From Pisolithus tinctorius (taxonomy: Eukaryota; Basidiomycota; Agaricomycetes; Boletales; Pisolithaceae), in contig JANFAH010000005.1 in NCBI GenBank assembly GCA_024663395.1, positions 3,162,001 to 3,226,000 of the forward strand: DNA of 64,000 bases, in the 5' to 3' direction. Within the stretch, counting starts at the first letter, position 1, and the number at the start of each line of letters is the position of its first letter. Shown here piece after piece: positions 3,681 through 64,000 of the stretch. The translations under genes were made by a program, and so were the position numbers. The notes beneath the pieces are model-generated. The model saw only the letters and a program-made list of their open reading frames with translations. It was not told where the DNA came from and made no database searches.

Positions 3681-3740
3681 GTCTCGGGGGTAGAACCTGA
3701 GCCTGAGGCCAGTGCGGCCTCGGTGGTGGCCACAGCGCGA

Positions 3741-4163
3741 TGTAGGGAATAAGTACTCCCTACTGAGGTGATTTAATTATTTTATCTTTTCTATTGTGTT
3801 TTTGCTTTGATTTACATTAGTGATACTTAGCCTACCTTTGTGGCGCATTTTTGGTAGCTTAGTCAGCATTTTTTTGCGCACTAGTGTAGGTCTACAGTAC
3901 ACAACAAAGAGGAGAAACCAGACTGCAAGACAGTGAAAATAAAAGACTGCGAATGAAAGACTGCGACAAGCCCTCTCAGAGGCACCCCTAGACGACCCTA
4001 GACACAATCCTCCACTCTTTTCATCACTCCATTCCTTCTGACCAACTCCAGTCACTCATTTGACTCTTTTTCACTGATCCAAGCACAGAGCTCCTCTGGG
4101 TCGAACTAGACCCTTTCCATCAATCCCTAGGAGTCCCTAGGATCGCTAACTACCTAACTTACA
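3741..4163 (+). mobile_element. Solo LTR with 4-bp target duplication GCGA
   Basis: The insert runs from TGTAGGGAATAAG to CTAACTTACA and is flanked on both sides by GCGA (3737-3740, 4164-4167). Removing it restores the gag frame. Its first bases and the later CTTAGTCAGCA motif resemble the LTRs of the gag-only element at 46906-50052, so they are probably related families. Strand is arbitrary. Confidence 0.85.
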
Positions 4164-4792
4164 GCGAGCCTTGGCCTTTCTGGCTTTCTTGGGGCATTTG
4201 TCTGTGAAATGACCAGGGCCTCTGCAGAACATGCAGAGATTGCCCTCTATGCAACGCTTGCATTCCTCTGGGGTGAGCTTCCCATCCTTCCTGAGTTTGC
4301 TAGGCTTGGGCTTGGAGGAGTTGCTGTTATTGTTGTTGCCCAGCTTCGATGAAGCCAGCTTAGGGGTAGAACTGGTGTTGTTGTTGCTGCTGGTCTTGGA
4401 TTTATCTTGACTGGTCTTGGGCTGGTTGTTGTTGCTGGAGCCTCTGGACTTGTTGTTGTTGCTATTGGAGGAGCTCTGGTGCTTACTTGCCCGTTGGACC
4501 TCTTCCTTGCACTCCCAATAGTGCGGATCTATTTCTTGGGTGAGGTGGCAGAGCTCGTGAAGTGTCCAGGGTTTGCCAACTCGACAGAGCTCATCCTTGA
4601 TTCAGTCTGGGAGGCTGGAATAGAAATGGTGGTGCAGCGCACTGTCTCTGTAGCCTCAGACTTGTGAGGCAAGCTGATTAAAGTTGACTATGTATTTGTT
4701 GATGCACTGACTTTCCTTCATGTGCAAGTGGTTGAGTTGGCTCTCAGCGTCAGCAACTGGGTCGTGAGGGCTGAAGGTGGTTTGCAATTCTA

Positions 4793-5009
4793 CAGTGAGG
4801 GACAAAAGCGTTGCAATGTTTGTGACGTGTGAATTGTTGCTGATGTAGCTTGGGATATTCTGCACAGATAATCATGATACCTATACCATTGGAAAGGGAT
4901 GACTCTAAGCTTTCCAGAGCACTAAGGTTCAGTCAAAACAAAGCAATACATGCTGAGATACACCCTATTCTTTACAAAATGTGCATTGCAACGCTTTTGT
5001 CCCTGACTG
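4793..5009. repeat. Internal MITE-like unit of FB1, left arm
   Basis: The terminal motif recurs in inverted orientation inside the arm, ending CGCTTTTGTCCCTGACTG at 5009. This defines a 217-bp unit with about 26-bp terminal inverted repeats, and its mirror image is 6149-6365. FB1 may have grown from two such units in inverted orientation. Confidence 0.7.
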
Positions 5010-6365: not shown

Positions 6366-6766
6366 TAGGACGAACTCCCTCCAGGAGTCCATCCAGAGAG
6401 GCCAATCATTGGGGTCGTCGAGCCCGAGCAAGTCCAGCTCGAACCATTCTAAGGCCATGCCTTTGAGGTATGATTGGGTGAAGATGACCTTGGTGCAGTC
6501 GGTCCTAAAAGCCCAGGGTCAGTCTTGGAAGTTGAGCTCGCACTGGATAAAGAAAGTGTGAAGTTTCTTTGGGTCGGTGCCATTGAAAGTGTCGGGCTCG
6601 TGCAGCTTGGTCCTGCTTGAGGACTCAGGGCTAGTATGGGCATTACGAGCCAACAGTTTGATGGCTGATGCAAGGTTGTCCAAGACCGTAATGGCAGGCT
6701 CAGTGTCCAGATCTGGGAAGTCCAGTTCATCTGCCAGATCATTATCATCCAGATTATCATCACCGG

Positions 6767-7709
6767 TGTAGGGAGCCGTATACTCCCTGAGGCTGGAACA
6801 GGAATCTGTCACTAAATTCTGCAGGCCTCTACGACAAACCCGTTTCGGAATTTTTCCCACTCGTGTCCTCGTGTTCCCTCCCAACCCCTGTCACCTTCGG
6901 AGTTTCTACTGACCTTCCGCATGTTGCTCAGTCATCAAAACACTGATCCGGAGCCACGTCACCAGTCATCCGTGCCGCTTTCCTCTGAAAAACTCTGCTT
7001 TCCCCTGTCGCCCCAAATTCCGCAAGCTGGACTTCGTGCCAGTACACTACGCTCTGCCCCCCTGTGTCGCTCAGTTCCATCTTTCACTTGTACGCATACT
7101 CTCGTGCTGTTGGAAGATACCCCTTACTGTTGTCCTGCTCTTGCTCTCGTCTACTACCCACTGGTCTATTTCACATGCATCTGTATTTCGCTGACGTCTG
7201 ACGTCCCTTCCTTTATTTTCCGGTCTTTTAGTTTTCCCGCCCCACTTTACTCCGACTCGTACCTACTTTCCCTGTACTATATAATTCCGCCTTGATGTCG
7301 GAAATATGGCACCCACCTTTTGAGTCGCTATCTGTGTGTGTTCTGCAAGTTCGAGAGTTTCAAGAGTCTAAAGTGCGTATATAGAGTCTGCTGCGTCTTC
7401 AGTGTCCCCAGAGGTCTTCGTGTCTCCTGTGTCCTCCAGCCCTGCACACCTAATCCCGTGTCCCTTTTGCTTCGAATTCACTCCTCTTGACGCGTAGCGA
7501 CCCCTCGGAATTTCATATACCTGTCTTGCTGTTCCTCACGTGTCTACATCTGCCCAGAATTAAATTCTGCGACTCTCGCTTGAATTTCCCCACTGCTTCT
7601 AAGCCCATTCTCGACCTCTCCTTCCACACAGTACCCCTTGGGACGATCCTAGGGAATTCTCCCTTCTCCCTTCCTCTAGTCGCACGCTTCCCAGAAGTCG
7701 TGTCACACA
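6767..7709 (-). mobile_element. Solo LTR (943 bp) in gypsy-1 gag
   Basis: The plus-strand ends are TGTAGGGAGCC and GTGTCACACA. The flanks are CCGG (6763-6766) and CCAG (7710-7713), a 4-bp duplication differing by one G-to-A at CpG. A second copy of exactly the same length lies in inverted orientation at 40490-41432. Gag reads through on removal (D-N-G-P-G-D-D-N). It contains a TATA-like stretch near 7255. The strand given is arbitrary. Confidence 0.87.
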
Positions 7710-8037
7710 CCAGGACCATTATCATCAGGATCATTATCGTCTGGGTTGTTGTCATCATCATCGCCTGGCCCATCATCGCCAGGGTCACCCTCAGGTATGG
7801 GGGCAGTAGGGTGGCGTGGAGTGGGGGTATTGGATGTTTGGGCTGAAAAGCCCCTGAAAGGACTGACAGTGTCTGGGGAGCACCTAGTGGTGCCCAACGC
7901 AGCTAGAGCTGTTTTGTGGTGAGCCCCACTGGCTGAAGCAGAGTCAGGGTTAGTGGCAGAATGACCACAGGGAGGTTGAAAACAAGTCTTGGTTGCCATG
8001 ATGGTTTAGACCCACACAAGTGGCGAGTCTGAAATAC

Positions 8038-11780: not shown

Positions 11781-11787
11781 ATTTTTT

Positions 11788-18088: not shown

Positions 18089-18621
18089 TGTCAAGTATGG
18101 GGTGTCTGGGTTGAGTCCAGACTGGAGACCAAAGTGGGCACGAGGCCGAAGGGTCAGGATCAAGAGGGGAGACAAGAGTACAGAAGATTGGACTGGTTGG
18201 ACTTAGCGACTGAGGGTACAGCGCTATTCCCTTGCGTGGGTCCCAGTCCGAGTCCGAGGCCGAGACAGAGTTATCAGAGGTAACTTAGTTGATTTCAGAC
18301 TGAGAGGTACAGGCCAAGTATCTATGAGTTTATATACTAGAGTATCTATAGTATGGAGACCAGTAATGCTGGTCTCACAAGATTGCTAAGGTGCTTGGTA
18401 AGACAGGTATTAGTAATATATGACAAAGACAACAGAGACTGGGACAGGTGGACCAGGGACAGGGCCAGGGACAGGACTTAACCGAAATGACAGACACTGC
18501 AAAGCAGTGTTCACCGCACTAAGCTATCTTGGGACAAGGGGACAAGGGGACAGACGAGGCCAAGGCTGGACTCAATGAGTGCGAGGCCGAGTCTGGCCAG
18601 GGTCGAGACATGGCTATGACA
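18089..18621 (-). mobile_element. Solo LTR of the gypsy-1 family, target duplication GAAGG
   Basis: Diverged copy of 8038-8562, from TGTCAAGTATGGGG to GGCTATGACA, with GAAGG on both sides (18084-18088, 18622-18626). It lies 33 bp from the previous solo LTR. It keeps more CpG than its surroundings. Confidence 0.9.
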
Positions 18622-35695: not shown

Positions 35696-35799
35696 TCACA
35701 TATCAAAAACATTTCATTGTTCACTCCCCAGTGGGGCAATGGCTACCAGAATTGAGGTGTGGCATGGGGGGCATGCCCAATGCTACTGGCACCATGTGC

Positions 35800-37657: not shown

Positions 37658-37924
37658 GCACCTTGCAGTAGCATCCACTCAAAGTGACAGAAATGTGAAA
37701 TGGTCCAATGTACACTTTCTAGTGATCATCACAAAGCTATAAATCACTAGTAGACTTGATGATCAGGTGTACCCATTCACATTTCTGATGCTCTGAGTTG
37801 ATGCTACTGCAAGGCACATGGTCCCAGTAGCATTAGGCATGCCCCCCCCATGCCACACCTCAATTCTGGTAGTCATTGCCCCACTGGGGAGTGAGCAATG
37901 AAATGTGTTTGATATGTGACTGGA

Positions 37925-41432: not shown

Positions 41433-41675
41433 CCATGTGGTGATGGCAACGGTGTGGTGCTGAGGGTTTGAGAACACCGGCAAGTTCCACATGGAAGCAA
41501 AGGAAGCATAGAGCCGAGGGATGCAAGAAGGCTGTTGAATGCCGCATACAGGCGTCCAGACCGATGACATAAGCACCTCATGGCCACTAAGTATATATTT
41601 GTTAGTGTGCGGCTCAAACCTTCACATCGATTTGATTCTCCCCCCCCATCATCAACTGCCTCTCTCACTCTAGTC

Positions 41676-44171: not shown

Positions 44172-45114
44172 TGTGAAGTACGGGTTTACCCTTGGGTGAC
44201 CAGGCTTCAAGACTGGGTGACAGGGGCTAGTCCAGGTGGCCAGAGTCAAGGCCGGAAGACAGGGCTTAAGTCCGAGTGGCCAAAGTTGAGGCTGGGAGAC
44301 AGGGGCCAAGTCTGGTTGGACCGGAGTCAAGGCCGGAGGTCAGGGGCTAAGTCTGGAGGACCGGACTTAAGGCCGGGAGCGTGGGAATAAGACCGGTAGC
44401 GTGGGAAACCGACCGGTCTTGGGGTGCGCACAGGGGGAAGCTGGTCCAGGGTTGGATCTACCTCCCTTGGTCTCAGCTTATGTGCTGTACCCTTATGCAA
44501 GCTGGGGAGAGGTCCGGGACAGGGGTCGGGGATAGCTTAAGGCTTGGCCTTAGCTATAGAGTAGTCTTGAGGGGTAGTACAGAGCTGAGGGTAATACTTA
44601 ATTGATATTCTGACTGAGGGTGCTACGAAGTATGTACAGGGGTTAAATACATGAGGCTGGTCCGGGATAATGAACATAGAGCCGGACTTGTTAATAAGCT
44701 ATTAGCAAGAAGATTAGCAAGAGAATGGATAGCCACAGTGGCTGTTCTGAGGCTAATAGCCAAAGTCCGGGTGACCGGCATACCGGGGTCAGACACAGGA
44801 TTTGTACAGTAAGCGAAAGTCAGATGAATGGGCTAGACTAAATATAGTACAAACAAAGGGAAACAGACCGGAGTTATGTCCGGGTGACCCGGACATGGAC
44901 CTAGGAGGACCGGGGTGGAGCAGTGCAAGGCCAGGAGGCCGAAATGGACCGGAGATAGGGGTAAAACACCGGACTTGAGTTATGCAGGCCGGAGTTGAGT
45001 TATCTAGGGCCGGGATTGGGTTGTCTAGGCTGGACCAGGACCGGAGTTGACCGGAGTTAGGGGCTAGGGGTCTGGACTGGGCTGAGTCCGAGTCCAAGAG
45101 TCATGGATATGACA
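44172..45114 (-). repeat. LARD 3' LTR (left)
   Basis: TGTGAAGTACGGGTTTACCC to TCATGGATATGACA on the plus strand. Adjacent to the polypurine tract at 45115-45135, so it is the 3' LTR of a minus-oriented element. Confidence 0.9.
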
Positions 45115-46905
45115 GTATCCCCCTCTTAGGAACCAAACCCTTGAGGTTCCATAGGGAAATATGCTCAGAGGGTTATGCAGTGAGGTTGCATGACTTGGAG
45201 TGAGTCCGAGTGCACACACAGTGCCAAGGGAGAGCCCGAGGGCTGGGAAACAGGACAGTGATGACCGGAGGTCCAGTAGTTTGGACCAGAATGGCATAGG
45301 CTGGGTTTGGGGTCAAGGGTCAAGTCCGAGGAGTGTTCTGGGAACCCGAGACCAGAGAAGCAACAACAAGGAGGGCCGGAGACCGGTCTAGGAGGCTGCC
45401 AGATGGTTCTGCAGGCTGGGACAGGGCAAAGCCGAGTCTGGGAGTGACTATACCAGCTGGACAGGGGTTTTCAGAGATAGCGAAAGCTGAGGCCGACATC
45501 TCAGAGGGCCGGAGTTGCACTTCGGAGCTGGGTTAAGGCAAACCGAAGGCTGGGAATGACCAGGTAAGGCCTAGGGGTGTGCTTCAGGGCCAGGTCAGGG
45601 AAAGCCAGAGACCGAAGATGTGCAGGGGACCAGTAATGTCCAACTAATGTACCAGGAGTGTGCCACTAGGGCCAGAGGTGTGCTTCAAAGCCGGTTCAGG
45701 GCAACATGGAGACTGAGAGGGTCCAGAGAGGTCCAGAGATGACCATAAGATGGTCCAGGGGTGTAGCAGGTGCTGCTGAGTGACAACAGAATGACACAAA
45801 GGCTGGGTGCAGGAAAGGCCAGGAAAACCGGTCTAGGAATGTACTGGTTGGACTGGGAGTATGCTGCAGGGGTACAGAGGGTCATGAGAAGTGCTGAGAA
45901 GGCCGGGTTGGGTCCAAGGTCTGCTCCAGGGGGTCATGGGGTCTGAGAGTGTGTATCTACAGAAAAAGAAAACGGATAACAGGAAACCAAGAAAACATAT
46001 AACAAGGAAACAGGAAACCGAAGCCAGAGACAGGGGTCAAAGCCGAAGGCTGAGACCGAGGGTGGCTTAGGCCAGGAGTGGCCAAAGCTGGAGACCGAGA
46101 CCGAGGGCAGCTGAAGCCTGTTGTGCTAAAGTGAGTGGTCTGGCAAAAACAGCAAGACCGAAGACCGGTCAAGGGAACAGAAGGCCTGGAAGGCCGGGAA
46201 CCGGTCTGAGGGTCAGAGAGGACCGGAAGGGGCAGCTGGAGACCGGTCTAATGGTCAGGGAGGGTTAGAAAAGCCAGGTGGGGTCCAGTTGGGAGCCAGT
46301 GAGGACTGAGAGGGTTAGAAAGGCCATGGGAGACCAGTCTTGACCTGGATGGGGCTGTAAGGCTGGAAATCCAAAGAGAGACCGGTCTGGAGTTGGGCCA
46401 GGCCGGAGCAACCAGCTGAAGGCTGGTCTGAAGGAGTCGGAGGGGTTTGGGGTGGCTAGAGGTGACCTGAGGTGCCTTCTAGCTGGTGGGCTGACGACCG
46501 GAGGCCAAAACAGTGTAGGCTGACGGGCTAACACTGAGACCGGGGTAACCAGGGGTAGCAGGGTGTAAACCCGAGGCCGGAAGTGGCAAGCCCAAGTGCC
46601 GAGCACCTTGGAACAGGCCGGATGGGCTTCTGGAGGACAGTGAGGGACCGGGGAGGCTGTCTAGGACAGCGAGAGTTGAGTTTGCACAAAGACTGGAGGG
46701 CTGGACATAGCTAGGCATGAACCAGGGACCAGCAGGTCATGAGACCGGTTCAATGAAGGCCTAGGGATCTCAGCAGGAGGGGAGTCTGGGTGTTGAGTCC
46801 GGTTTAGGGGTGTCCGGAGTTGGTTGGAAGTGGGTTTTCTGGTGGTGAGAAGCCTGAAGGCCAAAAGGGCCACTGGAGGACCGGTTCAGGGGGTCTGGAG
46901 ACCGG

Positions 46906-47256
46906 TGTAGGGAATGTAATTTCCCTACTAGGGGAATTGTTTTATTTTGTTCATTTTATTCAGTTTTGATTCTAGGTGTTTTTTCTGCTAGTGGTACTTA
47001 GAGTTTCGCATTTTGGTCGCTTAGTCAGCACTACCTAGTACTGGATGTAGTTAGTTTTTTTTAAAAACAATAGACGAGTTACCCCGAGACGAGAGACGAG
47101 TTCGAGCAGGTCGTTTCCCTGCACCCAGACAGCCTCAGAAGCCTTCAGACGACTACCAGGATCTTGCTAGGCTATAGAAGCCCCTTTTGGCCTACTCATT
47201 CCCCTCAGATCTCATCATTCCCCTCACTCATCCTCTTTAAATCTCATTTTCCTACA
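46906..47256 (+). repeat. 5' LTR of the gag-only element
   Basis: TGTAGGGAATGTAATTTCCC to CCTACA, 351 bp. The first ~165 bp differ clearly from the 3' LTR, while the last ~185 bp (from GAGTTACCCCGAGACGAG) are identical. Confidence 0.9.
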
Positions 47257-47257
47257 A

Positions 47258-47275
47258 CTGGAGCCCACCGCGAGG
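47258..47275 (+). promoter_or_regulatory. Primer-binding site of the gag-only element
   Basis: CTGGAGCCCACCGCGAGG directly follows the 5' LTR; TGG pairs with a tRNA CCA end. The matching tRNA cannot be named without a search. Confidence 0.55.
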
Positions 47276-47482
47276 GGCTTCTGTCTTAGCCTGGCACCCA
47301 TCCCAACCTTCCCAGATTCATTTTTGCAGTCTCCAGCTTCGTTTTAGCAATTTCCAGGCTCGTTTTAACAGATTTTCGCCTCTCGGCCTCATTTTTGCAG
47401 TCACTTCGCTCGCATTTTCGTGTTTTCCCACTCGCGCGCACTCACTTATCAAGCATTCACACTCGTATAAACTCCCGAAGTC

Positions 47483-48844
47483 ATGTTCGGCCTCAAGATT
47501 CCGTGTCGAGGCTCGCCCGAAGCACCGAGCTTCTCTGGGCGCCCCGAGGACCTTCGAAGCTATTTTGATGACATAATCGACTTCTGTGATGGATTCGGCC
47601 TCTCAGACGGGCTCGCACGCATCAAATTCGCACTCAAGTATGCGCCTGTTGAGATGGTGGACCTCTGGTCCCACTTGGCAGATACCAGGAATGGAGATTG
47701 GAGTTATTTTACCTCAGAAGTGGTCCGGCTGTACCCAGAGCTGGAGGAGTCCTGCAGGAACCAATTTTTTAGACTGAAAAGTGCACTCGCAAGCTCGGAC
47801 ACCATCTCGGTATCTTCCCTGGGCGAGTATTTCCGCAGCTTTTGTCGTTTTTCGCTGTCTCTCGAAAAGCAGAAAGAGTCGACATCTCATCTACCTGTTG
47901 TGTTTTTTTATGGATTCCCGCCCAAATTCAGATGCAAGCTGCTCGAGTTTCTTGACTCGCCAGATCAAGAGCTTACTGTGTCTAGTCTTATGATTGCAGC
48001 TAAACGGATTCTCGCACTGAGCAGCGGCCTCTGGAAGAGCTGCAAGGTCGACAGTTCGCGCGCGCAGCCACCACAAGCCTCGGACAGCCGTACACCCCGC
48101 CGTTTGTATTCGTTCTGCTTCTTCTGCGGACTTTCAGGCCATATTCGGGCAGGTTGCCATTCATTCAAGTCGTATTTAGCTTCGGGAAAGTGTCTACTCA
48201 TAAACGGCCGCGTTGTTCTACCTACAGGACTGGAAATACCGCGCGAAGTTGCCGGACGAACTCTACGAGACCGTCTCGACAACTGGTCTTCGTTGACAAG
48301 CCAGTTCGAGACTTGTAGGGGCTCGTCGCTTGCTCGCTCACTTTCACCCATGGCCGCACCCTCTCGAAGCGTGTTCGACACACCATCGCGTGTACCTGCT
48401 CGAATGAGCGTCGTGTCTACTCGGTCCCTACCTACTCTCCAGCCCAAGCCAGTGGTACCTGAACCACCAGCCATTCAGTCTCGTCGCTCGTCAGCTGAGC
48501 GCTCTCGTAGCTCACCACATGCACAGCCACATACCCAGGGTGAATCGCCCTCGCGTCGTCATTCACATTCACGCTCGCAGACTCGAAAGGGTTCGTACAT
48601 ACATTTGAAAGATGAATTCATACCGGTCCAGTCGTATTCCCGCAGCTTGAAGCAGCGTCACGCTCGAAGGCGCTCATGTTCATATTCGACTAGTGGCTCA
48701 CCCCCTTCTTCCTTGTCGTCGTCATCATCCTCACGCTCGTGCTCTCGTTCACGTTTGAGGAAGGCGTATTCATACATCCGTTCCAAACCGAAGCGGTCGC
48801 GCAGCCGCAGTCGCACGCCCCGGCGCTCTCGAAGAGCGCGTTGA
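47483..48844 (+). CDS. Gag-like protein with zinc knuckle and SR-rich tail
   Basis: A 453-residue uninterrupted frame. Residues 1-190 look like a retrotransposon capsid domain (F-S-G-R-P-E-D-L-R-S-Y-F near the start, V-V-R-L-Y-P-E-L, S-L-G-E-Y-F-R-S-F). A CCHC knuckle C-F-F-C-x4-H-x4-C is at 212-225. From about 330 the protein is extremely rich in Ser and Arg with S-R and R-S dipeptides and ends R-T-P-R-R-S-R-R-A-R; such tails bind RNA or splicing factors. It should bind and package the element's RNA. The only ORF of its element; start chosen as the first ATG after the leader. Confidence 0.85.
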   Translation: MFGLKIPCRGSPEAPSFSGRPEDLRSYFDDIIDFCDGFGLSDGLARIKFALKYAPVEMVDLWSHLADTRNGDWSYFTSEVVRLYPELEESCRNQFFRLKSALASSDTISVSSLGEYFRSFCRFSLSLEKQKESTSHLPVVFFYGFPPKFRCKLLEFLDSPDQELTVSSLMIAAKRILALSSGLWKSCKVDSSRAQPPQASDSRTPRRLYSFCFFCGLSGHIRAGCHSFKSYLASGKCLLINGRVVLPTGLEIPREVAGRTLRDRLDNWSSLTSQFETCRGSSLARSLSPMAAPSRSVFDTPSRVPARMSVVSTRSLPTLQPKPVVPEPPAIQSRRSSAERSRSSPHAQPHTQGESPSRRHSHSRSQTRKGSYIHLKDEFIPVQSYSRSLKQRHARRRSCSYSTSGSPPSSLSSSSSSRSCSRSRLRKAYSYIRSKPKRSRSRSRTPRRSRRAR

Positions 48845-49699
48845 TGCTGCATGTCGCACAAATTCCATTATGTTGTTTTTACTTCCTTTGCTTATGGATC
48901 TTACAGTATCTAGTATGGATCTACCTGCGTCGTAATGCGGAATTTTTGGTACATTAGATATGTTTGAATTTTCTTGTTTTGCCCTTCGTCTTTTACCCCC
49001 CAGGCTCGAGTTCCCCGCAGAACACTGAGTAGCATTGCACCTAGCACCTCCCCGCGCTCTACACGACACCTCCCATCCGCGGATACAGTTCTGACGAAAT
49101 TACTGCCGACACCGCTCGTCGCTTGTCAAGACAAATGCTACCTCCCTCGTACCGAGCACATACCGAGCGTGTATCTCGCTCGTTATCACGCCGTGCCTCT
49201 CGCTTTTTGGCAGGCTCGTTCTACTCGACGTTAGCTCTCTGTTGGTACCAAGATCGCTTGCAGGCGCCCAGCCGTTGAGGAGATATTCGCGTTTTTTTTT
49301 TGTGGATAGGTCCATTCTCAGGGTCCTGTAGTCGTATCTCGCCCGTTTCTCGACCGGATCTCTCGCTTTTCGGGATCCTGATGCTACTATTCGACAGCTT
49401 CAGAATGGTAGCTTTTCCGTCGTCGTCGCTGCAGAACTTGTGGCTACATTTGGTTTTTGGTGGATGAGGGTACCCTTGGGCAGTTTTGTGGATATCTCAG
49501 GATCGGGCGCACAGGTTCTCTGTGCTCATTTTGTGGGGTAGTCGCTGCATTCCATTCTGCCGCCATGTCTCGTTTCGCACCGTTCAGAGCACCTGTTTTT
49601 CGTCGATGAGTCATTCTCTTGCCCCCTCTGTCGTGACTTCGGATTCTTAGCCACCTTCGGGTTGACTGGGGATAGTCAAGATCTCGAGTACCCCTGGGA

Positions 49700-50052
49700 T
49701 GTAGGGAATGCAATTTCCCTACCGGGGGAATTGCCTTATTTTGCTTGTTTTACTTCATTTTCATTCTAGATACTTTTTTCTTTGAGTTGCACTTAGATTT
49801 CGCATTTTTGGTTGCTTAGTCAGCAGTAGTGCTACTTGTGTATGGTTTTTTTCCTTTAGAAAAAAATAGATGAGTTACCCCGAGACGAGAGACGAGTTCG
49901 AGCAGGTCGTTTCCCTGCACCCAGACAGCCTCAGAAGCCTTCAGACGACTACCAGGATCTTGCTAGGCTATAGAAGCCCCTTTTGGCCTACTCATTCCCC
50001 TCAGATCTCATCATTCCCCTCACTCATCCTCTTTAAATCTCATTTTCCTACA
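49700..50052 (+). repeat. 3' LTR of the gag-only element
   Basis: 353 bp, TGTAGGGAATGCAATTTCCC to CCTACA. Identical to the 5' LTR in its second half only. Confidence 0.9.
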
Positions 50053-51469
50053 CCGGGTGAGGCCTAGGGGTGTTCCAGCTGAAAGGCTGACAACAGGAGG
50101 CCAAGACTGGTGAGACCAGTGAACACACAATCACCAAGGCCGAGGACCACCGAGACAGTGAGACTGGAGTACCAACACAAATGTCAGGGGCTGGGAGCAA
50201 CCCAGGGCAGGTGGTTCGGGAGTGCTTCAGTATGCAAGGACCGGGCCAAGGAACTGGGAACCGGTGTGCAGGGACCAAGTGGGGCTGTGCTGAGGGCACC
50301 GGAGTGGTAGCGGACAGGAGTTTGGAAGAGAGTAGGTCACTAGCAAGGTCCCTTATCCCCCTCTTAGGGTAGACTTCCCAAGTCTACAGGGGTACAAGGT
50401 ATGGGCTAGGAACACCAAGAGGAGTACTGGACAGGTAGTAGGAGTACTACCACTGGAGTTGCAAGTCCGAGTACTGAGAATGCTGAGACCAGCTTAACAG
50501 GTGTCAAGACCGGTTTTGGGAAGCTTTTTCAAGGCCGGAAAAGCTTTAAAAGCGGAGATACAAGGCTGGCAGAGCAGGCCAGACTGGTATGGGGATAGTA
50601 AAGAGTGTTGGAGTCACAGGTGAGGGTATGAAGGCCAGAACCAGAGCCTGAGAGGAAACCAGAAGGCCGGTGAAGACCAGTAGGCCAAAAGACAACCGGT
50701 AAGACCAGAGTTGGGAGAGTGGGTAGGACCAGGGTTCCAGAGTCGATGGTGGGGTGACAGTGGCAATGGATAGGGGAAGGTGAGGGTCAGCTGGTACCCG
50801 AAGGGGCCTCGTGAACATACAAGTTCCGGGGCGAGTGGGTGAGCTGGGAAACAGACCGGCAGAGTCAGGGGGTTGTCAGATGGGCCAAAGCCCGGGGTGT
50901 CTTGCAAGAAAATTCATGCTCCAAGGCGGGGTTGACATCAGGGGGGTTAGCAAACTTTAGTATTAGGCAGGGATAGGTGACTGCACTACACTCAGCCACC
51001 AACGGGTGCCTATTGAGTGGGCTAGTCAGTTCCCTACAACCAAGATACTTCAGTTCCTAACAGGTTGACAAGGCTGGTTAAAACAGGGGTCGGAGACCGA
51101 GAGAGAACCAAGGCTGGGTCCACCAAGGACCGGAAAGAGGTGCTAGGTCAAGACCATAGCACCGGGGTAGAGGACAGGGGTAGTTCCAGGAGGAGGGAGA
51201 GGCCCAAAGGCCAAATGAGTGACAGAGGGAGTAGCATAGAGCTACCCAAGGGGTATCAGAGTCCGAAGCAGGCCAGAGATGGGAGACCAGCCAAAAGAAA
51301 CGAGTCCGGAGTGAGCAAGGCCGGTCAGGGGCTCTAAGGAAGTCCGGAGACCACAGGCCGGACAAAGGGTGACAAGGCCTAGTGAGGGAAGGAAGACCGG
51401 AACTCAGGAGAGTGGTCATAAAGGAGTCCAGAGGTGGAAAAAGCGGACACAAATAGGGGGACCGGAGTG

Positions 51470-51660
51470 TAGCACTAATTGATTTGTCTCTACCAAGACC
51501 ACCAGTTTCAGCTTCTGGTGTACCAGAGTACCAACTTGTTGACCCAGTTAGGATCCTGGGGTAGACTCTAATTGTTTTGTCTCAACCAAGACCACCGGTT
51601 TTGGCTTCCAGAGTACAAAGTTACCAACTTGTTAACCCAGTTAGGATCCCGGGGTGGACA
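51470..51660 (+). repeat. Direct repeat of about 105 bp within LARD
   Basis: Two copies of a unit with TTTGTCTCTACCAAGACCAC, then ACCAACTTGTTGACCCAGTT, in the internal region of the LARD-like element. Confidence 0.75.
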
Positions 51661-52989
51661 GAGGACAGGGAAAGGACCGGAAATGAGGTCAGGGACCGGG
51701 ATAGGGGCCGGAGGACCAGCAGACCGGTCCTAGACTGAAGACCAGGGCCAGGAGCAAGTCCGAAGGACTAGCATGCCCAGGGGGTGCCTTCAAGTGAAAA
51801 GAGAGGCCAGAAGAGAGGTCAGGGACTGGGCTAAGGCCCAGAGGGGTGGCAGACTGGTCCTAGACCGAAACAGAGGTGTCATGCACTAGCTAAGACTACT
51901 GGAGCTGAGGCCTGGTACAAGTCCAAAGGACAAGCACCATCCCGAGGCCGAGGTGACTAGTGCAGCACTGGGACAATGGACAGGAGACCCAGGAGGGGTC
52001 TGTAAGGAACAGAAAAGGTCTGAGGAGAGCCAGGACCGGTCCAAACCTAGTAACAGGTCTAGACAAGTCCGGGTGAGGTGGCTGAATCAAACCGGGGCCG
52101 AGAGGGCCAGTAACAAAGGGCAGGAGGCTGAGGGAAGTGGCAAACTGGCTTCAGACAAGTCTGAGTGAGTGTGGACAAGCCAACCCAGGGCTGGACAGGC
52201 TGGTGACAGACAGTTCTGGAGACTGGAAAGGGGGTCCAGGGCTCCAAGGCCAGTGTAGCAAAGGCCAAGGGTGGAGACCGGACCCAAAACTGCTGAAGCC
52301 GAGTGCCGATGGGGAACCAGGGAAGGTGTTGAGGGCCGGGACTGGCTAAGTCCAGGCCTGTGGGCTGCACCGGAGGTGCACAGATGTCCGAAGACCAATA
52401 TCAGGGAGTCAGGAGGTCAAATGAGTGATGAGACCCCAGTGTTCAATACAGTAGAACTGGACGAAGACAGCTGGGCTAGAGTGCTGGGATGACTGAGGTA
52501 AGGACTGTGGTGAAGACCAGGGTGACCAGCCAGGGGTCTGAGGTAGCTCAGGGGAGCTAACAGAAGTGAGTCCGGTTGATGAGGCCGGCTCAGGGGCAAG
52601 TCCGGAGGGTAACTCCGACCTGGAAGTGGGCTCAGGTGTGAACCCAGGTTGGTGGTGAGTCCAGATGGTGAGTCCGACTCAGGGGCTGACATGGCCGGTC
52701 CGGAGTCAGGAGAAAATGAGTGGCAGGCAGGGCTCAGGAGCAAGGGAATGGATGCATTAAGTTTTGACTACTAAGGACCATAGTGTCAGGGGTAATGCAA
52801 CCTGGGGGTGTGCAGAGTGCTGAGGGGTGCCGGGTTACCTCTCTGCTTTAGCAGAGATCTCCAGGTTGGGCTCCGGAGTCAGAGGAGAGGTATCCCAATG
52901 AGTCCCAATGGGCAAGGCCATGGGTAGGGGCTCTAGAGCAGGACCTAGACATGATGAAGTGACTTGCACAAGTGTGAGTCAGAATATAC

Positions 52990-53932
52990 TGTGAAGTACG
53001 GGTTTACCCTCGGGTGACTGGGCTTCAAGACTGGGTGACAGGGGCTAGTCCAGGTGGCCAGAGTCAAGGCTGGAAGACAGGGCTTAAGTCTGAGTGGCCA
53101 AAGTTGAGGCTGGGAGACAGGGGCCAAGTCTGGTTGGACCGGAGTCAAGGCCGGAGGTCAGGGGCTAAGTCCGGAGGACCGGACTTAAGGCCGGGAGCGC
53201 GGGAATAAGACCGGTAGCATGGGAAACCGACCGGTCTTGGGGTGCGCACAGGGGGAAGCTGGTCCGGGGTTGGATCTACTTCCCTTGGTCTCAGCTTATG
53301 TGCTGTACCCTTATGCAAGCTGGGGAGAGGTCCGGGACAGGGGTCGGGGATAGCTTAAGGCTCGGCCTTAGCTATAGAATAGTCTCGAGGGGTAGTACGG
53401 AGTTGAGGGTAATACTTAATTGATATTCTGACTGAGGGTGCTACAAAGTATGTACAGGGGTTAAATACATGAGGCCAGTCCGGGATAATGAACATAGAGC
53501 TGGACTTGTTAATAAGCTATTAGCAAGAAAATTAGCAAGAGAATGGATAGCCACAGTGGCTGTTCCGAGGCTAATAGCCAAAGTCCGGGTGACCGGCATA
53601 CTGGGGTCAGACACAGGATTTGTACAGTAAGCGAAAGTCAGATGAATGGGCTAGACTAAATATAGTACAAACAAAGGGAAACAGACCGGAGTTATGTCTG
53701 GGTGACCCAGACATGGACCTAGGAGGACCGGGGTGGAGCAGCGCAAGGCCAGGAGGCCGAAATGAACCGGAGATAGGGGTAAAACGCTGGACTTGAGTTA
53801 TGCAGGCTGGAGTTGAGTTATCTAGGGCCGGGATTGGGTTGTCTAGGCTGGACCAGGACCGGAGTTGACCGGAGTTAGGGGCTAGGGGTCTGGACTGGGC
53901 TGAGTCCGAGTCCGAGAGTCATGGATATGACA
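52990..53932 (-). repeat. LARD 5' LTR (right)
   Basis: Same ends and length as 44172-45114. On the minus strand it is followed by GTATATTCTGACTCACACTT, similar to the segment after the gypsy-1 5' LTR, in the primer-binding position. Confidence 0.9.
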
Positions 53933-54648
53933 ATAGGGGTAAGAGGAAGGTAGCCTCAGCAAGATCAAATGGAAACAGCAGCTTGACACCATGTACCATT
54001 AAGTAAGGGGATAAACCCATGGATTTCAAGATGGTGACCCACTTGGCCCAGAACATGGAGTGCACAATGGTGTGCCAGCAGCGGTTGTTGTTTTCGCAGC
54101 TCTTCATGATCGCCTCGCAAACATCATAGTGGCAATGCTCTACAATGCCATTAGCCTGAGAGTTGTAAGGAGAGATATGGATGTGACAGATATGATATTG
54201 CACAGCTAGGGCATCTAAGGCTTGGACGAACATGGGACCATTGTCAGTGACAATTTCAGAAAGCAGACCCCAGCGACATAGAATGTCCTCGAAGATGAAG
54301 GATGCAAGTGCGGTACTATTTTCTGTGCACAACATGCACCATTTGGGATATGAGGTGAGTGCACAATGAGCCTGTACTATGTAGTGGTAGCTGCTGGCTT
54401 TGGGCATTAGCATCATGTCAATGTGAGCTTTATGAAACAGGCCCCCTATCATGGGTACAGTGGGGGGGATATGAAGCTTCTGCATCTGGTGGATCTGGCA
54501 TTTGTGACAAGTGTGGACATACCACTTCACATCCTCGACAAGAAGAGGCCACTAGAAGCGAAGGAGAAGGTGCGTGCAGACTGTGAAGACACCCTTGTGT
54601 CCGAGGTCGTCATGTGCCTCTTTGATGAGATGATACCACTTGGATTTG
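53933..54648 (-). pseudogene. Gypsy-2 integrase N-terminal zinc and core domains
   Basis: Minus-strand frame (54530-53937) with C-H-K-C-Q-I-H, then the DDE core: I-D-M-M, V-T-D-N-G-P-M-F and a glutamate in G-I-V-E-H. The protein breaks at the ATAGG duplication, where the LARD-like element is inserted, and resumes at 44171. Many CpG-type replacements are likely. Confidence 0.87.
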
Positions 54649-56802
54649 TCAATGACTAGCTGGTGCTGTCTGTGGTTCTCTATGCCATAGATTTCCATCT
54701 AGGAGGAAGAAGCAGCTAGCCAAATTGAAGAAGGATGAGTACTGTGCATCAGTAAGGTCAGGAGGTTGCTCGCAGGTCGCAAGGAATGCATGGATCATTT
54801 CTATCTTCACTTTGCATGCCCGGGCTTTCATGGACCGCAGGATGGCAGGGTCATCAGGGGTATTGGAAGGGTTATTAGCATCAGCAGTTGCAGCAAACAT
54901 GAGATAAAAGGATGCAGGCAGCGGGAGGCTTGCCCAATGATAAGCGGGTGGCAGTAAGGAATGGTGATCTTGACTGGAAAGCAACATAGGAGGCAGGTGG
55001 TCATTGACAACCTGTGTAGAGAAAGAATAAAAACGGTCTAGCCAATCCTCATGGTCGTCATCCTCAGGTGGGTCGAGCTCTGACTGCAGACGGCAGGATA
55101 AGCCATCAGGGCCGGCATGCCTGTCTGCAGGGATGTGCATGAGTTTGAATGAGAAGAGGAGGACACCAGTGATCCAGCGATTGATCATTGCATTAGGCTG
55201 CAGATCTGGGTTATTTATCATGCCCTTAATATACTTCGCATCTACCTCCACAGTGAAGTTAGTGAGACCGAAGATGTATATGCATACTGCATGCAACACA
55301 CAGAAAAGACCATACAACTCAAGTTTGGCCTGGGAGTAGTGGCTTTCCACTTTGTTGAGGGTGATGGATCTGAAGCAACTTGGGTGCCACCTGCCATCTT
55401 CACCGAGCTGGTAGAGGATATAGCCAACTGTGATGACTGAGGTGTCGACTGCTAGAATTACTTCACGACTGCACTCGTAGTCAATTCTTCAGAGTGTGGG
55501 GGACTTTACAATTTCGTCCTTGAGTCATTGCATGGCAGTGCATTGTGGTTCATCCCATGTGAATGGTACGTCTTTCCACATGAGCATGACTAGTGGCCAT
55601 GCAATCTTGGCGAAGTCTTTGATGAAGATGCATAGCACACTGCAGACACCGAGGAACCATGAACCTGTGTCAGGTTGCAGCACTCAGGTTAGTTGCAGAT
55701 CTTCTGCACTTTGCTCTCTTCTGGAATGCGACCTTCAAAGGTGCACTTGTGGCCGACGATCACAGCAGATGGAGCGGCTAGCATGAACTTCTTTGCCAAG
55801 ATGGTGGCTCCAATGTTCTGCAAACGCTGAAGGATATGGTTAACAACTATACAGTGATTCCAGATAAATTTCTGAATCCCAGGATTCTCCAGGATAGTCT
55901 CATAGGACCCATCTGCACACTGATAGTGGGTGGTCTCGGATTTTACAGGGACATCATCTATGAAGGGCAGGGTATGATGTGGGATCTCATCCTGGAGAAC
56001 AAATGCAGTATCTCCCTGGTATACCTGGACTGCATTCACATGACCTTGTGGCAGGGTAGTAAGCCAGTGCGGTCCGAGCAGGGTACCGAAAGTGGTGAGG
56101 TTGCAGGAATCCACATGAAGTGCGTGCTGGTCATACCCAGAGTAGAGGTCCATCATCGCATATACCATGTACCTGGCAAAGGATTCTGCGAGATGTTCTA
56201 TGAAGGGCAGAATGGATGCATTGTGGATGGTCACTGCATTCAGGGGCTGTAAGTCATGCACAAGGCGAAGAGACTTTCTGTCTTTCTTTACTATGCAGAA
56301 CCAGCAGGAGTGGTAAGCCACTGTAGAAGGTTTGTACATGCCAGACTTGATGCGATCTTTAATCATGTCTATGACTTGGGCATGTATTGCATTTGGAATA
56401 GGGATATTGCATTGGACCCAAGGTGTGTGTGGAATCATAGGGATCTTTACAGGTGGGAAGTAACATTCGTCTAGGTGTCCATGCTCTGTAATGTCCCATG
56501 TGAATGCAGGCTTGTGGACTGAGATGAGCCAAGTCATGAGCTTAAGTTCTTCTGGCCAAAGCCAATCTGTGGGATCAAGGTCAAGTTCCGTGGTCCATTT
56601 GGCAGTGAAGTGGATGCCTGGAGCAAAATCTGGTGGGTGGGTCAGAAGTGGTTGGAGACCAGCAAGCAGATCATCTGGCAGGCTGCGCACAATGTGGTAT
56701 TCTTCCACCATCAGGGCAGGTACTGTCCGAACCTTCTTGGCAACTGGCTTGTAAACGAGAGTGCAAACCGCGGGATCTAGTTGATAAACACTGCCGAGAG
56801 CA
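54649..56802 (-). pseudogene. Gypsy-2 reverse transcriptase and RNase H
   Basis: The RT frame (about 56790-55689) starts at a linker Y-K-P-V-A-K-K-V-R-T, then W-L-W-P-E-E-L-K-L, V-H-D-L-Q-P-L-N-A-V-T-I, D-L-Y-S-G-Y-D, the catalytic F-I-D-D and H-K-C-T-F-E-G. RNase H (about 55500-54649) has A-V-D-T-S, Y-S-Q-A-K-L-E-L-Y-G-L and V-E-V-D-A-K-Y-I-K-G-M. Stops lie near 55686, 55530 and 55490. Gag and protease are missing on its 5' side, where repeat A begins. Confidence 0.87.
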
Positions 56803-57225
56803 CTTACACAGAAGACAGGCCAAAACAGAGGCCAAGGGTATACTACAAGCACTAAGGAATAGAGACCATGATAAGAGAAAGAGTCCGAGGGAAAAAGCGA
56901 CTGGAGCACAGTGGCCATGGGTATAGCACTGCGCGAGAGGGAGTGAGGGCATGGGAAGGTAGCGCATGAACAATGGTGAATGTGAGAGGGGAGCAGACAT
57001 AACAGTATCCACAGAATGGTTAATAATAGGGGCTCACACATCTAGGGAATGCAGATTCCTTACACCTGCAGGGGACTTAGGTGCTGACCATCCCTGGTCA
57101 GCCACATGGTGTGGAAGACATAAATAGCTTGCTGTGTGGTGATGGCAACAGTGTGGTGCCGAGGGTTTGAGAACACTGGTGAGTTCCACATAGAAGCGAA
57201 GGAAGCATAGAGCTGAGGAACACGA
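56803..57225. repeat. Repeat A, second copy
   Basis: Matches 40145-40489 plus 41433-41515 with numerous CpG-type differences and lacks the 943-bp LTR found at 40490, giving the empty site near 57134. It abuts gypsy-2 pol on one side and LTR-B on the other, and might be the gypsy-2 5' LTR. Confidence 0.65.
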
Positions 57226-58224
57226 TGTCACACACCAAAGGTGTTGTGGACATGGTTACAGCTGACTCTGCCTAACTCATTGACGAGTTGCACACAATGC
57301 CCAAGCATGCAGATGAAGACTAAAGGCCTCATGCGTAGAAAGACTGTTGGACATGAACAGTCATCCTTCGCACAAGATCGAGTCATCAGTGCTAAAGAGA
57401 AAAGAGGAAGCGAGTTAAGCGCGCATTAAAGGTTTTTAGCACCCGTGTACGGCATTCCGGTTTTCATTGTATCTCCACCGTTTCCAAAGATATCGACTCC
57501 ATTCCCATGCTCGCTTAAAGTGCTCAGCCCCACGATTCTTCCTTCCAAATTTGGAGAGGATCCTCGCACCCTGCGCGTTTCTACAGCACTCCATCCATCA
57601 GATGCTCATTTTGCTAAGTCCATCAATCATGGCCACCTCTTCGTCGATCATCTCGCTTGTCTCATTTGCCAGAGACGGTGGCTATGTATATCTGCCAGGC
57701 ATTCCCACCAGCTTCTGTCCTGAAGCCCCCTGGTTCATCCCGTCGTTGTCAGCCCCGTCTTGTCCCATGCAGCTTGGTCAGCGTGTTCTCCTTGTCAGTA
57801 TGACTTCCAGAAGGACATTCTTTGGTTGCCTCAGGTCTGTCACTCGGTTAGAAAGGTCTTATGTGGTCGTTTCAGTCTCCCCGGTTGATGAAGCATATGG
57901 ATCGTTCCTCCCTGCTCCCTGCACCATCTTTATTCCAGTCTCGTCCATCATTCTTCCTGCATTGCGACAGCTGCAGTATAATCTACTGTCCTCCAGCCTC
58001 CCTGATCGCATTCATGACGAGTATGACGTGCAACTTGCCTTCCTACTGCAAGATCCAGCAGAAGATGTCCCCCCCTTCTCCTCCTCCTCCATCAGAACCC
58101 TGTTCATGAAGTTTTTGTTAACTTCGCTGAGAGGATGGAAGGGTGGGAGATGCGATCGCATATGCTCTCATTGCCCCACAGACCCCCAACACCCTAGCCC
58201 CCTTTGACACCTGACTCATGCCCC
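57226..58224 (+). mobile_element. LTR-B copy 3, 3'-truncated
   Basis: Starts TGTCACACACCAAAGGTG with left flank ACGA; homologous to 35800-36790 and then stops at CATGCCCC where LINE sequence begins. It keeps many CpG sites that are TpG or CpA in copy 1, for example CTTCGCACAAGATCGAG against CTTCACACAAGAACAAG. Confidence 0.85.
57629..58108 (+). CDS. ORF in U3 of LTR-B, best-preserved copy
   Basis: Starts M-A-T-S-S-S-I-I-S-L-V-S-F-A-R-D and keeps CGA at codon 113, where copies 1 and 2 have TGA. An extra C in a C-run near 58068 shifts the last few codons, so the frame here runs on to 58207 instead of ending P-P-S-P-P-P-P-S-E-P. The core is rich in beta-type stretches (Q-R-V-L-L-V-S-M-T, R-S-Y-V-V-V-S-V). 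No signal peptide, known domain or zinc site recognised. Conservation against the copy at 63742 is mostly synonymous. Confidence 0.55.
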
Positions 58225-60851: not shown

Positions 60852-61269
60852 TGGATGGAACAACAACCCCAGTAGCTCACAGATCACAAGTACAATACAT
60901 GGGCCTGCATGTATTGAACAATGCAATCGACGAAACAGTCGACATATACACAGCAAGCACACAAGCAGACGATGCAGATTCCAAGAGCAACAAAACTGTC
61001 CCATTCGTACAAAACATAACAATAGACAATGTAAACAGGGAATGAATATGAGTACAGGCCCTATTCAACGACAGTGCAATGATAAACACGATGTGTACAA
61101 CAGTCTTCGAAACAGTCAAACACAAGCTAAAAGGGTGGATCACCTGCTCACAACCACTGAGGATGGTGAATGGCACAGTCATACCAGCAGTAGCACAATG
61201 GACAGGAACGATACGAGCAGGAGATGTCAAGACACAAGGCACATTTGTGGTATTTAATAGCAGAGGCGG

Positions 61270-63129
61270 TGTGAGTCAAAGTGTGGAAAGGTGGTGAAAA
61301 CCAACCAAAACCAACACAAAAGACAAATGTAAAGTGAGTGGTGGTGTGCCTCCACGGGACCTGGAGTGCAGAAACCTAAGAGGGGGAAACTTCAATGGCA
61401 GGTGCTCCTAGTGCAAGTTGACAACGAGTTGCACAGGAGTAGATAAGCAAGTGATGATTGGATGGGGGATGCTGAATGGAGTGAAGGTGTTCAGCTGAAA
61501 GGACTTCTGGAATGATGGACTTTGATACAACGTGCTCCTGGCACAAGTCAATGACGAGTTACGCAGGAGTTGGATGGATGACTAAGCAAGAGTGCTGACT
61601 AAGTGTGGATAAGACTGCAGATGATGGATGGTGGCAGATAGACCCCTTCATGGAGCCTCAACTACCAATGATATGAATGGAGACAGATAGACTCTTCTGA
61701 ATGAGCCTCAACTGTCAACAATGAGTTATGCACTGAAGAACTGACTGACTGCTGAGTGAATGGCTTCTGATTGCCCTTTTTTGTAGCTAAGTACATGGGG
61801 GTTTATATACTGAGGGGGGAGTACAGCTTGTGACAAACAAGGCACAAACACTTGGTAAGTAATGAGTAAGGACTGAGTAATCATGATGAGTAAGCGAGAA
61901 ATGAAAAGTAAGCAAGCAAAGAAGATTGGTAAGTATTGGCAATGAATGAGTCAAGGATAGTCAAAATATCACAGAATGAGTCAAATAGAATCAGAAACTG
62001 AGTAAGCGCACTGATATCACATTAGGGGGTGGCGATGCAAGTTAGATCTCGGCAGAGACATCTCTAGATCCAAAGACGGCATGACAGATGGACAGTGTTT
62101 CCAGACAGGGAAGTATTAATTCCAGAATTGAAGGGCATGAGTCAGGTGTCAAAGGGGGTTAGGGCATTGGGGGTCTGTGGGGCAATGAGAGCATATGCGA
62201 TCGCATCTCCCACCCTTCCATCCTCTCAGAAAAGTTAACAAAAGCTTCATGAATGGGGTTCTGATGGAGGAGGAGGAGAAGGGGGGACGTCTTCTGCTGG
62301 ATCCTGCAGTAAGAAGGCAAGATGCATGTCATACTTGTCATGAATGCGATCAGGGAGGCTGGAGGACAGTAGATTATACTGCAGCTGTCACAATGTGGGA
62401 AGAATGATGGATGAGACTGGAACAAAGATGGTGCAGGGAGCAGGGAGGAACCATCCATATGCTTCATCAACTGGGGAGACTGAAATGACCACATAAGACC
62501 TTTCTAACCAAGTGACAGAGCTGAGGCGACCAAAGAATGTCCTTCTGGAAGTCATACTGACAAGGAGAACACGCTGACCAAGCTGCATGGGACGAGATGG
62601 GGCTGACAATGATGGGATGAACCAGGGGGCTTCAGGATGGAAGCTGGTGGGAACACCTGGCAGATATACGTAGCCACTGTCTCTGGCAAATGAGACAAGT
62701 GAGATGATCGATGAAGAGGTGGCCATGATTGATGGACTTAGCAAAATGAGCATCTGATGGATGGAGTGCTGTAGAAATGCGCAGGGTGCGAGGATCCTCT
62801 CCAAATTTGGAAGGAAGAATCGTGGGGCTGAGCACTTTAAGCAAGTGTGGGAACAGAGTCGATATCTTTGGAAATGGTGGAGATACGATGAAAACCGGAA
62901 TGCCATACATGGGCACTAAAAACCTTTAATGTGCGCTTAACTCACTTCCTCTTTTCTCTTTAGCACTGACGACTCGTTCTTGTGTGAAGGATGACTGTTA
63001 ACGTCCAACAGTCTTTCTACACATGAGGCCTTTAGTCTTCATCTGCATGCTTGGGCATTGTGTGCAACTCGTCGACAAGTTAGGCAGAGTCAGCTGTAAC
63101 CATGTCCACAACACCTTTGGTGTGTGACA
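61270..63129 (-). mobile_element. LTR-B copy 2, solo LTR of 1860 bp, duplication GCGG
   Basis: Inverted full-length copy: plus-strand ends TGTGAGTCAAAGTGTGG and GGTGTGTGACA, with GCGG on both sides (61266-61269, 63130-63133). It defines the LTR precisely. A TATA box on the minus strand (TATATAAACCCCC near 61806) matches copy 1. Confidence 0.92.
62247..62726 (-). pseudogene. ORF in U3 of LTR-B, copy 2
   Basis: Same 159-codon frame and length as copy 1 without indels, ending P-P-S-P-P-P-P-S-E-P-H-S. Codon 113 is TGA (62390-62388), as in copy 1, where copy 3 has CGA. Most other residues agree with copy 3. Confidence 0.55.
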
Positions 63130-63369
63130 GCGGATGGGCATTCCTGGTAGGAAAGCCACTACTAATTGCATTCAAGGTGCAACATGACTACAATACAGAC
63201 CAGGTAACAGTGTCAGACAGAGAACACATGCTAATGCTACACAACAGATATCACGACCAAACCCATGAACAAGTCATGGGTAATAAACACAGGACCCTGG
63301 ACATCAAGCAATGCGACACCAATAAACAAACCATGGCAAGCGAAGGCCCAAGTACAAAACCCTGTGCGG

Positions 63370-64000
63370 TGTCACACACCAAAGGTGTTTGGTGAGGTGG
63401 ACATGGATGTAGCTGATGAATGGAGATGAAGACCATAGCCCTCATGCGAAGAAGGACGGCCAGAAATGTTGGCAGTCATCCCTCACACAAGAACGAGTTG
63501 TCAATGCCAAAGAAAAAGGAGGAAGCGAGTTAAGCACCAATAAAGTTCTTAAGTGCCTGTGTACGGCATTCCGGTTTTCGACATATCTCCGCCAATTCTG
63601 CAGACACCGAAACCATTCCCACACTCGCTTGTAGTGCTCAGCCACGCGATCCCACCTTCCAAAATTGGAAAGGATTTGCGCACTCCACACGTTTCTACAG
63701 CACTCCCTCCAAAAGACGCTCATTTCGCTAATTCTTCTGATATGGCCGCCTCCACATCAATCATTTCGCTTGTCCCCTTTGCTAGGGACCATGGCTATGT
63801 ATATCTACCAGGAGTTCCTACTAGCTTCCGTCCTGAAGCATCCTGGTACATCCCACCCTCGTCTGCCCCCTCTCAGCCCATCCAGCTTGGACAGCGTGTT
63901 CTTTTTGTCAGTATGACCTCTAGGAGGACATTCTTTGGTCGCCTCAGGTCTGTCATTCGCTTGGAAAGGTCTTATGTGGTCGTTTCAGTCTCTCCAGTCC
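63370..64000 (+). mobile_element. LTR-B-like copy 4, runs off window
   Basis: Starts TGTCACACACCAAAGGTG after GCGG, with clear divergence from the other copies, so it represents a different subfamily. Only the first 631 bp are in the window. Confidence 0.85.
63742..64000 (+). CDS. ORF in U3 of LTR-B, diverged copy 4 (partial)
   Basis: The frame starts M-A-A-S-T-S-I-I-S-L-V-P-F-A-R-D and stays open to the window end (86 codons). In my codon-by-codon comparison with 57629, 38 codons differ, 23 of them synonymously and 15 not; two of the 15 are CpG-type Arg-to-Cys changes in the other copy. This is the pattern expected of a protein under selection. Function unknown. Confidence 0.55.
   Translation, partial: MAASTSIISLVPFARDHGYVYLPGVPTSFRPEASWYIPPSSAPSQPIQLGQRVLFVSMTSRRTFFGRLRSVIRLERSYVVVSVSPV

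Follow-up and report, generated by a model that had tools for sequence, protein, structure and literature searches.

CpG-centred 4-bp target sites of four LTR retrotransposon families in Pisolithus tinctorius

LTR insertions in the window

The window studied here, that is, the whole 64-kb stretch of Pisolithus tinctorius DNA (contig JANFAH010000005.1, hereafter C5; C5:3162001-3226000), carries eight insertions of long terminal repeat (LTR) elements with 4-bp target duplications. The insertions belong to four LTR families with a common primer site, named A, A', B, and C, whose LTRs measure ~420 bp, ~350 bp, ~945 bp, and 1.86 kb, respectively. Family A is represented by the insertion at 3741, A' by the one at 46906-50052, B by those at 6767 and 40490, and C by those at 35800, 57226, and 63370 together with a minus-strand copy at 61270-63129. 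Every insertion examined, here and elsewhere in the genome, is located at N(CG or its decay product)N, with a stagger of 4 bp and in exact register, and the original central dinucleotide was CG in nearly all cases.

An earlier note, made from the letters of the window alone, had assigned all eight insertions to NCGN targets, and all of them were located at the positions it gave. Three duplications are exact on both sides, i.e., GCGA (3737-3740 and 4164-4167), CCGG (46902-46905 and 50053-50056), and GCGG (61266-61269 and 63130-63133). Three others had been explained by CpG decay. A CG ancestor is compatible with CCGG/CCAG at 6767 and with GTGC/GCAC at 35800; CCGC/CCAT at 40490 is the weakest case, as its last base needs an additional change. 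For the remaining two, a single flank is readable, ACGA at 57226, where the element stops at 58223, and GCGG at 63370, where the element exits the window. An inverted duplicate of the 35800 target without the insertion is found near 37800, and this empty site reads GTGC. The A' element is delimited by LTRs at 46906-47256 and 49700-50052, with the primer-binding site TGGAGCCC downstream of the 5' LTR.

The same note had listed four 5-bp duplications without CG. ATAGG (44172-53932), GGAAA (17173-18055), and GAAGG (18089-18621) were found, but for CTGGG no single element could be fixed. The features of the window are collected in table 1.

Table 1. LTR insertions and related features of the window
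Feature	Position	Strand	Remarks
Family A solo LTR (3741-4163), GCGA on both sides	3737..4167	+	LTR similarity; 40 scored genome matches listed, itself included
Family B solo LTR (6767-7709), CCGG / CCAG	6763..7713	+	Flanks read at the LTR ends
Family C solo LTR (35800-37657, 1.86 kb), GTGC / GCAC	35796..37661	+	
Family B solo LTR (40490-41432), CCGC / CCAT	40486..41436	-	One extra mismatch
Family A' full-length non-autonomous element (46906-50052), CCGG on both sides	46902..50056	+	
Gag-like open frame within the A' element	47471..48844	+	Homologous to B gag (31% over 321 aa, E 1e-37)
Family C LTR, 5' part only (57226-58223), ACGA ahead	57222..58223	+	
Family C solo LTR (61270-63129), GCGG on both sides	61266..63133	-	
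Diverged family C LTR ended by the window edge, GCGG ahead	63366..64000	+	
Decayed pol of a relative	53919..57041	-	Integrase piece 52% identical to B integrase over 206 aa
Control LTR element, 5-bp duplication ATAGG	44172..53932	+	
Control solo LTR, 5-bp duplication GAAGG	18089..18621	+	

Target sites across the genome

The survey covered 92.5 Mb in 221 contigs. LTR similarity was the sole criterion in selecting copies, which were the best-scoring matches of each LTR query, window copies included (A, 39 of 40 listed; A', 30 of 41; B, 36 of 40; C, 30 of 47), and the two flanks of each were read mechanically where the LTR ends. Internal flanks, i.e., those leading into the primer site or the polypurine tract, were excluded from the reading of targets. 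From 123 entries, 11 with a flank identical to that of another entry were removed and seven A' LTR pairs were merged, resulting in 105 distinct insertions (31 of C, 29 of A, 23 of B, and 22 of A'). The 11 entries stem from duplication in the assembly or of genome segments, or from one element having been picked up twice; one further CG flank was lost with them.

The central dinucleotide in the 195 readable flanks of these insertions is CG in 109, CA in 44, and TG in 42, and no other dinucleotide occurs. In the nearby flanking sequence (3510 dinucleotides), CG amounts to 2.9%, CA to 8.6%, TG to 8.5%, and TA to 3.9%. The presence of CG, CA, or TG in all 195 flanks against a background of ~20% for the three together (~1e-73, counting one flank per insertion and assuming independence) excludes chance. 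Among the 90 insertions readable on both sides, exact 4-bp identity of the duplications was found in 42 and 5-bp identity in none. The outcome named by the earlier note as contrary to its reading was a lack of CG enrichment in the genome-wide 4-bp duplications; in these best-scoring copies the enrichment is present, and the CpG-preferring integrase first read from eight sites is thus supported by the genome-wide counts, which go well beyond what eight sites can tell.

The outer bases of the target are also selective. The motif V-CG-B fits 90 of the 105 targets. Relative to the NCGN background, GCGC is used 3.1x, CCGG 2.6x, CCGT/ACGG 2.4x, and CCGC/GCGG 2.0x, whereas GCGA/TCGC and ACGA/TCGT are under-used 4-6 times and TCGA is absent against 11 expected. 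The palindromic V-CG-B preference is what is expected of a two-fold symmetric intasome. Outside the four target bases hardly any base is favoured, apart from a slight bias in the one or two positions adjoining them.

This bears on the manner in which the CpG is found. Tethering is the usual route by which LTR elements choose regions, and a methyl-CpG reader or a heterochromatin protein could bring a sequence-indifferent integrase near CpGs. Proximity of this kind would spread the positions of the CpG, but the CpG is always at one exact place in the 4-bp cut and the neighboring positions show almost no bias, so that tethering is a very improbable cause of the pattern. The fixed register is an indication that the base pairs are read within the intasome and not just nearby.

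Two window LTR families with 5-bp duplications (44172 and 18089) served as controls, for which 20 further end pairs and three window copies were read by the same procedure. The 21 distinct cases comprise 14 exact 5-bp duplications, one 6-bp match, and six without duplication, five of which are explained by one end being internal. Their central dinucleotides are mixed, with a single CG in 38 flanks. The choice of duplications by eye, or a survival bias, might have produced the rule, given that decay had been allowed for in three of the eight insertions of the first reading. However, the copies were chosen by LTR similarity and their flanks read mechanically, and the 5-bp families read likewise show no such rule; an artefact of this sort is hardly credible.

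In two cases a target is nested at the junction of another insertion. A C LTR at C25:581610-581679 starts right after the duplication of a B element (CTGG|TGTGAG), and another at C15:288237-291538 starts right after that of an A' element (CCGG|TGTCAC), which was judged to be A' by its first letters. At these two junctions, the duplication of one insertion became the target of the next.

The 90 two-sided insertions are distributed in 33 with CG on both sides, 33 with CG on one side and CA or TG on the other, 12 with CA and TG, six with CA twice, and six with TG twice. The mixed classes, i.e., CG with CA or TG and CA with TG, point to a CG ancestor. CG is either seen, or forced by the CA/TG mismatch between the copies, in 88 of the 105 insertions. 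For the 81 two-sided insertions with equal outer bases, CA/CA and TG/TG together were observed 10 times, against 7.7 expected under independent decay.

Retention of CpG in the duplications can be compared with that in the LTRs of the same families. In C, it is 0.33 in the duplications and 0.31 in the LTRs (82 LTR sites, 29 copies); in A', 28/37 (0.76) and 0.75; in A, 26/45 (0.58) and 0.72, the latter from nine LTR sites only. Copy by copy, the two retentions are correlated with a Spearman coefficient of 0.74 in A', 0.58 in A, and 0.33 in C (P 0.08).

Uninterrupted relatives of the targets were searched for at 45 sites (five of the window and 40 elsewhere; 0.35 Mb searched) and found for 18. 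The earlier statement that all eight insertions lie inside other repeats was covered in part by this search. The uninterrupted alleles have CG, CA, or TG in 210 of 215 cases, and in 138 of 138 with at least 85% identity. Copy independence, retention relative to the LTR CpGs, and uninterrupted paralogues are the three ways in which the decay account of the mismatched duplications was checked and supported. In the window, CpG observed/expected (o/e) is 0.03-0.69 in most 4-kb steps and ~1.0 at 24-32 kb, the part which includes a SUV3-like helicase gene, a profile characteristic of genomes whose CpGs decay outside genes.

The same data bear on a broader rule, in which the integrase needs just a flexible pyrimidine-purine (YR) centre (CG, CA, TG, or TA), like that of foamy virus, and CG is not special. 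The 86 CA and TG centres among the 195 flanks agree with it, and 4-bp-cutting retroviral integrases are described as favouring a flexible YR step at the centre in the passages cited (PMC4422553, PMC4176367). On the contrary, TA is absent from all 195 flanks, against its 3.9% nearby. Half of the two-sided insertions (45 of 90) are discordant in the manner that a CG ancestor predicts, and CpGs were kept in the duplications at the same rate as in the LTRs in C and A', and at a lower rate in A. A general YR rule has therefore little probability. Since CG is the sole YR step in use, flexibility alone is insufficient, and contacts to C and G, or to a methyl group on C, must matter.

The elements and their integrase

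The B element contains a gag-protease frame and a pol frame, the latter with reverse transcriptase (RT), RNase H, and an integrase with an H2C2 zinc-binding domain. The pol order is that of Ty3/Gypsy, the protease match is in the gag frame, and LGPM is found in the C-terminal domain (a GPY/F-type module). No Pfam match to a chromodomain was obtained in B pol (E up to 0.1) or in five relatives, and the mark of chromoviruses is thus absent from them.

A, A', and B have LTR pairs with TG..CA ends, the primer site TGGAGCCC, and a purine-rich stretch ahead of the 3' LTR. The core of this primer site is common to all four families. In the case of C, the LTR end and the primer site were seen, and on that side it has the structure of an LTR element. 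The C end motif followed by TC and the primer site occurs in 78 of 79 pattern matches genome-wide, and all eight sampled C primer-site places end in a C LTR (65-73 of 72-75 bases identical). The first 30 copies of C were all solo, and a DNA transposon without LTRs was considered; it was rejected once the C end motif proved to be joined to the primer site. Comparison by eye of the places of pol matches with the 79 C primer-site places gave no regular pairing that would reveal a pol of C.

A' carries a gag-like frame only, and its homology to B gag indicates that A' is a non-autonomous relative; we infer kinship with B for A and C as well. Among solved structures, the B integrase matches foamy-virus integrase best (E 2e-21) and Ty3 much more weakly (1e-7). 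For a relative, a structure model of moderate quality (599 aa, mean predicted local distance difference test score (pLDDT) 65) shows the zinc-binding and the catalytic domain, whereas the C-terminal domain is modelled only weakly. Foamy-virus integrase ranked first for it too, with poor global superposition to both the foamy-virus and Ty3 structures, and the model points to no CpG-reading residue.

Among the best 120 of 1199 integrase matches, the top identity, 84% across 67% of the query, is with a protein of Pisolithus microcarpus. The other organisms among the matches listed are Leucocoprinus, Candolleomyces, Pleurotus, and Rhodofomes, all mushroom-forming fungi. The decayed pol piece at 53922-54551 belongs to a large integrase family, mostly 80-88% identical to it (150 scored out of 1394 candidates).

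The most probable account, to which we give high confidence, is that A, A', B, and C represent a single type of Ty3/Gypsy LTR retrotransposon of fungi, and that the integrase of this type makes a cut staggered by 4 bp and centred on CpG, with the outer preference V-CG-B. The integrase would read CpG directly during strand transfer, at the centre of the cut, and this reading would be a strict form of the YR preference of retroviral integrases making 4-bp duplications. A, A', and C would be mobilised by the B-type machinery or its close kin. After insertion, the two copies of the CpG would decay independently to TG or CA, as methylated CpGs do in silenced repeats.

Several observations weigh against this account. 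Five empty paralogues, each with identity below 85%, have GG or CT at the centre. Five sites supply 178 of the 215 empty alleles, and at least two of them (L011 and L053) lie inside C LTRs. The outer base differs between the copies in nine of the 90 two-sided insertions, which may be recombinants, wrong pairings, or mutations; all nine centres are CG, CA, or TG. The lower retention in the duplications of A may leave room for a minority of non-CG targets, or may be noise given the nine LTR sites. Seventeen of the 105 insertions do not individually prove CG. Lastly, a B-type integrase for A, A', and C is suggested by sequence features, namely the primer site, the gag homology (A' only), and the shared target rule.

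A hairpin is possible just inside the LTR start in all four families (3741, 6767, 46906, and 63370). As a mark of the 4-bp families it was rejected, as folding z-scores of -1.7, -2.6, -0.2, -1.6, and -0.1 are not separated from those of the 5-bp controls (-1.3 and -0.4). The 3' part of a B element (L089 1-1847, plus strand) has long antisense frames, one with a zinc-cluster-like cysteine pattern recognised by eye; four tested frames gave no Pfam match, and they are possibly a captured or antisense gene.

Other repeats of the window include an inverted repeat at 4790-5491 and 5668-6368 (~702 bp, 98.9% identical, spacer of 176 bp) and long minisatellites, with units of ~21 bp at 35118-35761 and 37833-39003 (open in more than one frame) and of 45 bp at 11443-11802 and 14097-15172.

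Precedents and a possible role of methylation

CpG-centred targets are known from two other groups. The Phygy elements of moss (Physcomitrella) are set apart from the other plant LTR elements by a preference for NCGN (Neumann et al. 2019, PMC6317226), and 4-bp duplications are the most common in them (PMC6911290). As described in those passages, Phygy is a non-chromovirus Ty3/Gypsy LTR retrotransposon with mostly 4-bp duplications at NCGN. The fungal elements share the 4-bp NCGN target; the host differs.

The Ginger1 DNA transposons have duplications of CCGG (75%) or CCGT/ACGG (24%) (Bao, Kapitonov and Jurka 2010, PMC2836005). They share with the fungal elements the Gypsy-type integrase, the TGT termini, and 4-bp duplications that form a subset of VCGB. 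They differ in being animal DNA transposons flanked by terminal inverted repeats and with a single transposase, most of them carrying an OTU or Ulp1 tail, whereas the fungal elements are LTR elements with RT and RNase H. The Ginger1 motif is also much narrower, as CCGG, CCGT, or ACGG account for only 40 of the 105 fungal targets, and the YPYY motif which Ginger1 has before the zinc finger was not found there in B.

Other systems are more distant. Plant LTR elements with 4-bp duplications have GC-rich central dinucleotides and AT-rich outer bases, as a tendency over many families, and the passages cited report no strict CpG, unlike the fungal families (PMC6911290). In the plant 5-bp duplications of the same source, T is rare at the left edge and A at the right, which resembles the fungal V and B. 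Errantiviruses of Drosophila, e.g., ZAM, are described as having Ty3/Gypsy integrases with short palindromic targets, like the fungal families; their hosts are insects and their targets TATA, CGCG, or ATAT, to which the fungal targets do not conform (PMC5408687). Prototype foamy virus has the nearest solved integrase by sequence and by the fold of the relative, and the passages cited describe a 4-bp cut with a YR centre (PMC4176367), but it prefers YR in general and the fungal clade takes CG. Crapaud (PMC10787394) and the TET/JBP transposons (PMC12730594) were considered and, from the passages cited, are not precedents.

The literature searched, with subscription journals mostly and Repbase outside its scope, yielded no fungal LTR element reported to have CpG-centred targets, which is a weak negative. 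Elements of this kind have been described from moss and animals; the fungal clade and its strictness seem new.

A stronger proposal is that the integrase reads 5-methylcytosine, i.e., that it prefers or requires methylated CpG and new copies are thereby steered into repeats silenced by the host. Judged by its title, a 1992 paper of Kitamura et al. reportedly shows that retroviral integration in vitro is affected by CpG methylation. The surroundings of the insertions are CpG-poor, with a mean o/e of 0.31 for 28 C and 0.48 for 13 solo A/A' insertions, compared with 0.40 for positions taken at random in the window and 0.68 for the surroundings of its average CpG. Single 1.49-kb flanks with o/e of at least 0.8 number 0 of 56 in C and 1 of 26 in A/A', against 45% for window CpGs. 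The CpGs of targets and LTRs decay like methylated ones, and the surroundings are probably methylated. However, selective removal of insertions from genes fits these values equally well, decay of the flank CpGs after insertion gives the same picture, and a single window is little guide to the genome as a whole. CpG is scarcer still in the flanks of the 5-bp families (7 of 792 dinucleotides, 12 insertions); a lack of CpG around the insertion is thus shared with families that do not target CpG and is no proof. A preference or requirement for methylated CpG is an attractive proposal of rather low probability, if a better candidate than tethering or a general YR rule.

The search for cytosine-5 methylase domains gave three exon-level matches above the curated cut-off (C6:1580932, C3:3395720, and C59:292638), two of them alike, and says little. 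There are just three such matches despite the massive CpG decay.

LTR integrases are usually credited with weak sequence preference. A fungal clade with a practically absolute requirement for two bases at a fixed register now joins the moss Phygy and the animal Ginger1 elements. The CpG pair left behind at every insertion undergoes a decay that can be read. The clade offers a clean system for asking how an intasome reads the central bases and whether it distinguishes methylated from plain CpG. As CpG is the site of methylation, the elements choose targets made of the very mark that silences them; if the methyl group itself were read, the methylation mark of the host would be the address of the element.

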